The notes beneath the pieces are model-generated. The model did not search any database. It was not told where the DNA came from and was given only the letters and a program-made list of their open reading frames with translations. A DNA stretch of 58,932 nt from Rhodoluna sp. (GTDB lineage Bacteria > Actinomycetota > Actinomycetes > Actinomycetales > Microbacteriaceae): NCBI RefSeq assembly GCF_024639375.1, contig NZ_JAHEIM010000008.1, positions 1 through 58,932 on the forward strand. Direction: 5' to 3'. Below are positions 38,767 to 58,932 of this stretch, piece by piece (position 1 is the first letter of the stretch; every line of letters starts with the position of its first letter). The position numbers and the translations under genes were made by a program.

Positions 38767-39087
38767 TTAGATGTCTGAAGCGGGCGCGCTAGCCGGCTTT
38801 GTTGCAGGAGCAGTCTTTGCAGCAGGCTTCTTGGCAGCCGCTGGCTTTTTGGCCGCAGGCTTCTTTGCTGCCGACTTCTTAGCTGCTGGCTTGCGAGGAG
38901 TTCCGCGAAGTTCTGAAGTGCGCTCCTTGAAACCCTCGGTTACCTGCTCGGCAATCTGCTCGCCAAATTCACGAGCACGCTTAGTAGCGTCATCAAGTTT
39001 TGCCTGAGCTTCAGGGTTCTTGTCGAGCTGCTTCTTAATCTCAACACCGGCAAAGATGCCAACAATAATCCAGAACAACTTCTTCAT
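38767..39087 (-). CDS. Small membrane protein with Lys/Ala/Pro-rich tail
   Basis: A 106-residue protein: short N-terminal hydrophobic segment (LFWIIVGIFAG, 4-14), a charged helical region (about 15-60), then an imperfect KKPAAKK-type repeat tail (about 66-100). It belongs to the small proteins found between DUF948 genes and alaS in actinobacteria. The function is unknown. The repeat tail resembles that of YajC at 48710; such basic tails may bind nucleic acid or cell envelope polymers (inference). Confidence 0.75.
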   Translation of the reverse strand: MKKLFWIIVGIFAGVEIKKQLDKNPEAQAKLDDATKRAREFGEQIAEQVTEGFKERTSELRGTPRKPAAKKSAAKKPAAKKPAAAKKPAAKTAPATKPASAPASDI

Positions 39088-48709: not shown

Positions 48710-49129
48710 TTAGTTGGCAGCTGGCTTGTTTGCAGCAGGCTTCTTAGCTGCTGGCTTAGCGGCCGGCTTCTTTGCTGCAGGCTTTGCAGCAGCAGGCTTA
48801 GCGGCCGGCTTCTTTGCTGCAGGCTTAACTGCAGCCTTAGCAGCGGCAGCTGGCTTCTCAGCAACAACTGGCTTTGCGTTTAGGTCAACAGTGCGCACGG
48901 CACCCTTTAGAACGGCGATCTTTACACCAGGAGTGGTCTCAACAACCAAACGGTCGTCTGACTGTGAAACTACGGTGCCAACGATTCCGCTGTAAAGAAT
49001 TACTGAAGCGCCAACTTTAACGCTGTCTAGAAGTGCCTGAGCAGCCTTCTTGCGCTTGCGTGAGCTTAGGAACATGAAAACGATCATTACGGCAAGAGCT
49101 GCAAAGAGGAACAAATCTGTGGGCTGCAT
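48710..49129 (-). CDS. yajC: YajC-type preprotein translocase subunit with repeat tail
   Basis: A 139-residue protein: one N-terminal transmembrane helix (about 5-22), basic RKRKK, and the YajC core (SVKVGASVILYSGIVGTVV). An unusually long tail of alternating KPAAKK/KPAAKPA repeats (about 90-139) makes it longer than the usual 85-110 residues. A similar tail is on the small protein before alaS. First gene of yajC-secD-secF. Confidence 0.93.
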   Translation of the reverse strand: MQPTDLFLFAALAVMIVFMFLSSRKRKKAAQALLDSVKVGASVILYSGIVGTVVSQSDDRLVVETTPGVKIAVLKGAVRTVDLNAKPVVAEKPAAAAKAAVKPAAKKPAAKPAAAKPAAKKPAAKPAAKKPAANKPAAN

Positions 49130-58655: not shown

Positions 58656-58686
58656 AATCCCGAAGCCAATGGTTTCGGGATTTTTT
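58656..58686 (+). terminator. Strong terminator after mqo
   Basis: Twelve-bp stem (AATCCCGAA paired with TTCGGGATT, extended by GCC/GGT including one G-T), three-base loop AAT, ending in a run of six T. It lies 14 bases after the mqo stop. Confidence 0.92.
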
Positions 58687-58722
58687 GTTTGTGACGTTAT
58701 CGGTCACTGGTTCGGAGGATGT
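58687..58722. other. Spacer with small palindrome before the repeat array
   Basis: Thirty-six bases between terminator and array. They contain GTGAC-N7-GTCAC (58691-58707). No promoter or reading frame is convincing. GTCAC also occurs inside each repeat unit. Confidence 0.4.
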
Positions 58723-58811
58723 TTGGTGGTCGATACTGGGATCGAACTAGCAAATTCAATGACAGTTGAATTTGGAGGTCACGTTTTTCGATCGTATCGA
58801 TACCAAGGAAA
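58723..58811. repeat. 89-base tandem repeat, copy 1
   Basis: First complete unit. It folds into a long interrupted hairpin: TGGT 58727-58730 with ACCA 58802-58805; CGATAC 58731-58736 with GTATCG 58794-58799; GATCGAA 58740-58746 with TTCGATC 58787-58793; CAAATTCAA 58751-58759 with TTGAATTTG 58766-58774, loop TGACAG. Bulges lie at 58737-58739 and 58800-58801. The loop TGAC can pair with GTCA at 58778-58781. No start codon with a sensible reading frame was found. Confidence 0.95.
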
Positions 58812-58900
58812 TTGGTGGTCGATACTGGGATCGAACTAGCAAATTCAATGACAGTTGAATTTGGAGGTCACGTTTTTCGATCGTATCGATACCAAGGAAA
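58812..58900. repeat. 89-base tandem repeat, copy 2
   Basis: Identical base for base to copy 1 and directly adjacent, with no spacer. On the minus strand the unit ends TTCGATCCCAGTATCGACC followed by ACCA, resembling a tRNA T-loop, acceptor strand and CCA end. A D-arm, box A and a normal T-stem are missing. Confidence 0.95.
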
Positions 58901-58932
58901 TTGGTGGTCGATACTGGGATCGAACTAGCAAA
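58901..58932. repeat. 89-base tandem repeat, copy 3 (cut by window end)
   Basis: The first 32 bases of a third unit, identical to the others. The true number of copies cannot be known from this window. Confidence 0.95.

Follow-up and report, generated by a model that had tools for sequence, protein, structure and literature searches.

The window, the whole stretch of DNA analysed here (58,932 nucleotides), is an entire contig (G000:C16, 1-58932, with G000 the label of the window's own genome) of an assembly of 22 contigs and 1.287 Mb, and its last 210 bases consist of two identical, adjacent 89-bp units followed by 32 bases of a third. Since the window covers this contig in full, the array ends at a genuine break in the assembly and not at an arbitrary cut. 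TRF returned a period of 89, 2.4 copies, 100% matches and a score of 420 (the top of ten rows for the window), confirming the identical, directly adjacent units and partial third described in a first-pass annotation of this DNA. Since the whole unit repeats and there are no spacers, a CRISPR array was rejected. The gene upstream is malate:quinone oxidoreductase (mqo) according to profile models, which the gene at a relative's locus, L007, matches too. Elsewhere in the window, imperfect 12-42 bp tandem repeats at 38814-38892 and 48713-48849 are possibly repetitive Ala/Lys-rich coding tails. The features at the contig end are:

58656..58682, plus strand: intrinsic terminator stem-loop following mqo, 40 bp ahead of the array
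58702..58714, plus strand: GGTCACTGGTTCG, tRNA-Val fragment in sense orientation (variable loop, T-stem), from the sequence
58723..58811, plus strand: unit 1, 89 bp, from TRF and the sequence
58723..58747, minus strand (antisense on plus): within unit 1, copy of the tRNA-Val(GAC) 3' end (part of the T-arm, 3' strand of the acceptor, CCA)
58751..58774, plus strand: within unit 1, hairpin with 10-bp arms (one T-G) and loop GACA, from folding
58775..58811, plus strand: within unit 1, GAGGTCAC and a degenerate, sense-oriented tRNA-Val 3' half
58812..58900, plus strand: unit 2, identical to unit 1
58901..58932, plus strand: first 32 bases of a third unit, ended by the contig end

The array unit thus has three parts: an antisense copy of a tRNA 3' end, a hairpin and an inverted tRNA piece. 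The tRNA origin of the last (58775..58811) was judged by eye against L007, and RNAfold pairs it with the first third of unit 1. The hairpin is of a short form (10 bp, loop GACA) shared with G059 and two tRNA-Met arrays. With three flanking bases, a single unit folds more stably on the plus strand (-33.8 kcal/mol, z -5.6, equalled by 0 of 200 shuffles) than on the minus strand (-25.6 kcal/mol, z -5.3, likewise 0 of 200). These values (z about -5.5), together with the identity of the units, bear out the earlier description of a structured intergenic array that was recently expanded or homogenised. The interrupted hairpin proposed at the same time holds up as a structure with one-sided bulges, but its stem count of 4+6+7+9 bp was not exactly reproduced, RNAfold giving 33 pairs on the plus strand. 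Similarly, the proposed pairing of a TGAC loop with GTCA is present in the window unit but is not general over the hairpins compared by eye, and a general loop-flank pseudoknot was not upheld in that inspection.

The tRNA-Val(GAC) context of the array

ARAGORN found no tRNA gene within the window. When 178 bp of the array were compared with 67 genomes of the genus (own included), there were matches in 40, nearly all confined to about 25-38 nt at the unit start, a stretch that ends in the tRNA-Val 3' end. At 28 of 29 relatives' loci (L002-L030), ARAGORN identified tRNA-Val(GAC), antisense on the plus strand and often followed by tRNA-Cys and tRNA-Gly, and 17 of the 29 have a gene for an mqo-like protein upstream. 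Among the 36 tRNA genes found in the own assembly, tRNA-Val(GAC), tRNA-Val(CAC) and tRNA-Cys are absent, and another contig, C21, starts inside tRNA-Cys. Given this start and the missing tRNAs, the gap between C16 and C21 should, judging from synteny, hold the remainder of the array, an intact tRNA-Val(GAC) and, before C21, part of tRNA-Cys. It is well supported that the array is the 3' flank of tRNA-Val(GAC), with the anatomy given above. The first-pass placement of the array after mqo is right in that mqo lies upstream, but the unit is built from the tRNA-Val(GAC) 3' end and mqo merely neighbours it.

Two of the 29 loci (G059 and G019) carry one unit each, with quite different hairpin arms, in the order tRNA 3' end, TAG, hairpin, GGGCACTGG or GGTCGTTGG, intact tRNA. 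The remaining 27 have a single tRNA core; one of these, L018, retains a lone sense fragment, and L004 (G012) has an apparent integrase element after the core (by reading only). A piece the same as or similar to GGTCACTGGTTCG comes after the hairpin in relatives' units, and the copy at 58702..58714 is probably the relic of an older, decayed distal unit.

Related units at other tRNA genes and in other genera

The same composite, with other hairpin sequences, lies behind tRNA-Val(GAC), Val(CAC), Ala(GGC), Ala(CGC) and Met-type(CAT) genes in at least four genera of Microbacteriaceae. Each unit combines a copy of the local tRNA 3' end, often with its terminator, an inverted piece from the T-arm region and a hairpin; unit size across the relatives ranges from 60 to about 138 bp, which leaves no room for an ordinary gene. 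Read in the orientation of the tRNA, the layout is tRNA, terminator, an inverted piece such as CCAGTGACCT, hairpin, CTGGTTCGATCCCAGTATCGC... again, and terminator. The terminator copies are identical in G164 and G458, one base apart in G433 and different in G270 and Agrococcus, where the order presumes that contigs L041 and L037 adjoin.

The exact motif was found in seven stretches of GTDB contigs: two of Candidatus Agrococcus pullicola, two of Leucobacter and three of Microbacteriaceae MAGs. A pattern of tRNA end, hairpin gap and GGTCACTGG matched 5 of 398 family genomes, a figure limited by the search pattern, with 0 control matches; the same pattern was present in 8 of 54 genomes of genus g14 and 2 of 11 of g20. 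The CTAG form was confined to the own genome across the family (1 of 398), most other units carrying CCAG. A viral origin was rejected: the 19-nt motif had 0 matches in IMG/VR, and the five matches to the unit pattern there, which by reading have no such hairpin, were judged to be chance. A search with one Leucobacter unit gave no match among phages and one weak match among plasmids (Streptomyces, E 0.01).

A covariance model matched at least 41 of 54 g14 genomes at E up to 0.1 (among the matches listed). The best 32 places of this model fall in 19 genomes, for 17 of which tRNA-Val was seen in the examined stretch, and it was absent from the examined stretches of G471 and G484. In G470, tRNA-Val lies 9.6 kb from the model match. 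A second group of matches comprises 104-107 bp arrays or single units behind tRNA-Ala(GGC) and Ala(CGC), and isolated cases occur at tRNA-Leu(CAG) and, with less clarity, at tRNA-Arg(ACG). When up to 450 bases of 3' flank were examined for 35 own tRNA genes and 43 of G470, copies of a tRNA end measuring 11 nt or more turned up at two Ala genes of G470 and at own Met(CAT) and Arg(CCT). At tRNA-Arg(CCT) (L188, G000:C3:52360-52870), a 13-nt 3'-end copy lies 38 bases downstream, after a short GC-rich hairpin. The Met(CAT) copies belong to a second array in the own genome:

L235:300-713 (G000:C9): array at tRNA-Met(CAT), with 64-bp units on either side of a run of N

Here the order is TACTCCCCACCA, spacer, ACGGGACTT (an inverted T-arm piece), hairpin and TACTCCCCACCA again. 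This layout is present in 3 of 67 genus genomes, among which the hairpin arms vary, with a compensatory change between G000 and G023. Both own arrays end in gaps; such arrays interrupt assembly from short reads at tRNA genes and are able to conceal these genes. As a separate observation, G477 (L064:5100-6560) has a 713-bp tandem duplication that takes in a complete Gly-Cys-Val tRNA cluster and the hairpin units belonging to it.

Comparison of the nearest tRNA copy with the resident 13-14-nt tRNA end showed identity in 22 of 32 array rows, many of the Leucobacter rows in this comparison having one common sequence; three rows show one mismatch, four show two, and in three the copy was not found. 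Copies track variants of the gene, as in G019, G059 and the CAC gene of G316, and a displaced tRNA 3' fragment in direct orientation is present in 29 of the 32 rows. Reverse transcription halted at a modified T-loop base was rejected because the start of the copied piece varies among Val, Ala and Met. The arrays also have a polarity: in nine of the ten Val arrays where two or more units were scored, the lowest-scoring unit is furthest from the tRNA, the contrary case being G462 (proximal 56.5, distal 59.2). L067 agrees, with a proximal unit at 67.2 and a distal unit giving only partial matches (15.2 and 12.3 bits). Distal decay is seen in two of four Ala arrays (G470 GGC and G491), with ties in G472 and G470 CGC. 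This polarity fits addition near the tRNA, but also erosion at the outer edge.

Conservation of the hairpin fold and how it may have arisen

The first-pass annotation had proposed a covariance comparison with relatives, and its outcome supports the hairpin. The unit list for this comparison dropped two duplicates and skipped the cut third unit of the window, copy a of L042 and an N-containing unit of L064; L038 was not entered. The alignment (A1) holds 19 of the 23 units, those from the window, L039 and L040 and an odd unit of L067 being excluded for lacking the two-part hairpin, so the covariation figures describe long-type units only and not the window's short form. The long-type hairpin has a 10-bp outer stem, a one-sided bulge of 4-5 nt, an 8-bp inner stem and a loop of 3-4 nt, a structure that RNAalifold recovers independently. 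Across the 19 units, 98.2% of cells are paired and 13 of 18 hairpin pairs show compensatory changes on both sides, although several of the units share an array and the changes are thus not independent events. The covariation score was 0.678 against 0.223 after shuffling (a level reached by 0 of 500 shuffles) and no more than 0.129 for slid versions, while the number of further pair types was unexceptional by itself (28 against 25.6; 85 of 500 shuffles).

What is conserved across the relatives is the shape of the hairpin and not its sequence. In 31 of 34 Val and Ala hairpins the geometry of a one-sided 4-5 nt bulge, inner stem and 3-4 nt loop is kept, and a bulge fixed in place between arms of free sequence argues that something recognises the fold. 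Among 37 hairpins extracted with a script (24 Val, 10 Ala and 3 Met, excluding L109, L113 and the short Val hairpins of the window's genus), the antisense strand is the stabler in 30, the less stable in one and equal in six. By this folding measure, the asymmetry would suggest which strand is recognised.

G-U pairs on the antisense strand, and its stabler folds, would also suit an array whose antisense strand is transcribed and whose hairpin acts as RNA, for example as an antisense or sponge for the tRNA 3' end, of which such a transcript would bear a perfect antisense copy. We nevertheless regard this as improbable. A simple consensus scan of sigma-70 type found nothing resembling a promoter or a terminator within the window's array (outside it there was one promoter-like match, against 0.6 expected by chance), and the mqo terminator stands just before the array. 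At the gathering score, Rfam had no match at the window end and gave tRNA only at 14 relatives' loci, and presence within the family is patchy (the 5 of 398 genomes above, pattern-limited). The non-coding RNA array among the first-pass suggestions thus found no backing in either promoter-like matches or an Rfam family.

A more serious rival, though one we doubt, is slippage alone, in which replication slippage and template switching at tRNA T-arm and terminator hairpins would have produced the arrays passively and quasi-palindrome correction would keep the hairpin arms matched, with no dedicated enzyme and no function. The identity of the tandem units, the inversion of the tRNA pieces, the local terminators that are identical or nearly so in G164, G433 and G458 and the duplication of a whole tRNA cluster in G477 are all in keeping with it. 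However, palindrome correction should erase bulges, yet the one-sided 4-5 nt bulge is kept in 31 of 34 hairpins, and hairpins resembling one another are found both beside different tRNA genes and at other places in the genomes.

Those dispersed hairpins bring in a mobile palindrome of the REP kind, a dispersed genome repeat that would have inserted beside tRNA genes and dragged tRNA ends along. Leucobacter has model matches away from tRNAs; 16 of 20 retrieved stretches with weaker matches have a second stem of at least five pairs directly after the match, outside the model and commonly of the CTGGCGC-CAC-GCGCCAG type (the match in L144 looks like chance); and L127 and L128 have copies in tandem, spaced at about 60 bp and lacking tRNA parts. 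In two genomes (L128 and L141), a dispersed hairpin overlaps the end of what is apparently, by eye, the same gene (..LTFRWQRR, stop). REP and REPIN palindromes with RAYT (compare PMC3116915) are likewise short, and the dispersed Leucobacter hairpins are sometimes doublets or tandem. Against such an origin, a search of 62 genomes gave 0 with a Y1/RAYT transposase (Y1_Tnp), 5 of 14 control genomes being positive, and the units are composites with tRNA 3' ends whose inverted pieces beside the hairpin are specific to each tRNA. We consider a history of this sort unlikely.

Candidate mechanism and relation to known systems

Our tentative preference, held with somewhat less than even confidence, is that these mini-units are non-coding and multiply in situ at the 3' ends of tRNAs, probably by recombination that involves a folded single strand. 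When single-stranded, during replication or uptake, the DNA strand antisense to the tRNA would fold, T-arm sequence pairing with its inverted copy to give a structure that has one-sided bulges and carries a terminal hairpin. This fold would be acted on by a DNA recombinase or by the machinery of replication and repair, and units would be added or duplicated beside the intact tRNA gene, which would stay functional because every unit restores the 3' end; units at the far end would be older and decaying. Of the readings weighed here, recombination of folded single-stranded DNA accounts best for the arrays, the restored tRNA ends and the inverted T-arm pieces together. The anatomy, the spread over tRNA genes and genera, the constraint on structure, the strand asymmetry of folding and the match of most tRNA copies to the resident gene are shown; that the fold acts as DNA and that recombination, rather than slippage alone, makes the arrays are inferred, as are the enzyme responsible and any benefit to the cell. 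A recombination site or the edge of a larger element was among the first-pass options, and its inclusion is counted right. Several points speak against the recombination reading: units of about 60-138 bp are too short for easy circularisation as double-stranded DNA, the identical or near-identical terminator copies in G164, G433 and G458 fit plain tandem duplication, the distal unit boundaries are ragged, the copied tRNA piece begins at different points in Val, Ala and Met, distal decay holds in only two of the four Ala arrays, and the similar hairpins away from tRNAs in Leucobacter mean that the link to tRNA is not exclusive.

An enzyme for the units was sought in a PF00589 search and in two integrative elements:

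G000:C6:90047-106600 (L247): defence-type integrative element of about 15 kb at tRNA-Tyr(GTA), own genome
L115:1745-11345 (G470, Leucobacter luti): 9.6-kb mobilisable element in the tRNA-Val T-loop, with integrase and relaxase

The search found three PF00589 proteins in the own genome (contigs C15, C1 and C6), none of them typed as IntI or on the array's contig. Two are open frames of 312 and 323 aa, which we take to be the size of XerC and XerD; the third is the 407-aa integrase of the tRNA-Tyr(GTA) element, which also encodes an HKD+Snf2-type helicase and a type IIG-like restriction-methylase. None of these sources yielded an enzyme linkable to the units. The arrays inspected have no integrase gene between tRNA and fragment, G470 tRNA-Val being the exception, and the arrays read have no longer open reading frames between units, apart from a 2.46-kb stretch beyond the G470 element, where frames of 177, 84 and 439 aa lie between two 95% identical hairpin units.

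Such elements make it conceivable that the arrays are leftover attachment sites, with repeated integration and loss having left displaced 3' fragments behind: integrase elements use tRNA-Val (G470 and, by reading only, G012) and tRNA-Tyr (own genome), and displaced tRNA-Tyr 3' fragments lie at L247:15416, 16598 and 16699. We judge this highly improbable, since both elements examined lack the hairpin, which by reading is absent beside the tRNA-Tyr fragments and was not found at the G470 element's own ends, and since relics would not be expected to retain a covarying hairpin.

In the titles and abstract openings searched, mostly outside subscription journals and preprints, we found no description of such arrays, which does not prove its absence. 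The arrays represent a class of structured repeats that is linked with several tRNA genes within a single bacterial family and has no Rfam model. They provide a natural setting in which to ask whether amplification at specific sites can be driven by single-strand folds where neither an integron nor a Y1 transposase is involved. Genomic islands at tRNA genes, as far as the accessible part of the Islander paper describes them (PMC4383910), similarly leave direct-orientation tRNA 3' fragments downstream of an intact gene, but the present units are 60-138 bp without an integrase gene, often tandem, and each carry a conserved hairpin and an inverted tRNA piece. Mitochondrial hairpin elements (RHE), many of which lie in spacers next to tRNA genes in one sponge, also come as single and double hairpins that move by uncertain means, but they are organellar, and the accessible text of that report does not mention tRNA-end copies (PMC2800124).

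Compared with integron attC arrays, our units have no gene, their fixed site is the tRNA T-arm, tRNA copies of about 12-28 nt stand at each junction, and no integron integrase is shown for them. Of the two units checked by eye against the attC R-box consensus (RYYYAAC / GTTRRRY), ATCGAAC of the window unit and GTTCGAT of L002 each miss by one base. The form may be called attC-like, but this likeness does not demonstrate integron status, and a tRNA-anchored, gene-less counterpart of the integron, in which the T-arm would be the fixed site and folded single-stranded units of 60-140 nt would recombine in, restoring the tRNA with the newest unit beside the gene, seems to us rather unlikely. In the accessible part of the attC literature (PMC8946536), integron arrays are built of imperfect palindromes in which shape and not sequence is conserved and one strand folds better through one-sided bulges; our arrays share the imperfect palindromes, the structural conservation, the strand asymmetry (by folding), the variable terminal hairpin and the arrangement as direct repeats beside a fixed site, which here is a tRNA gene.
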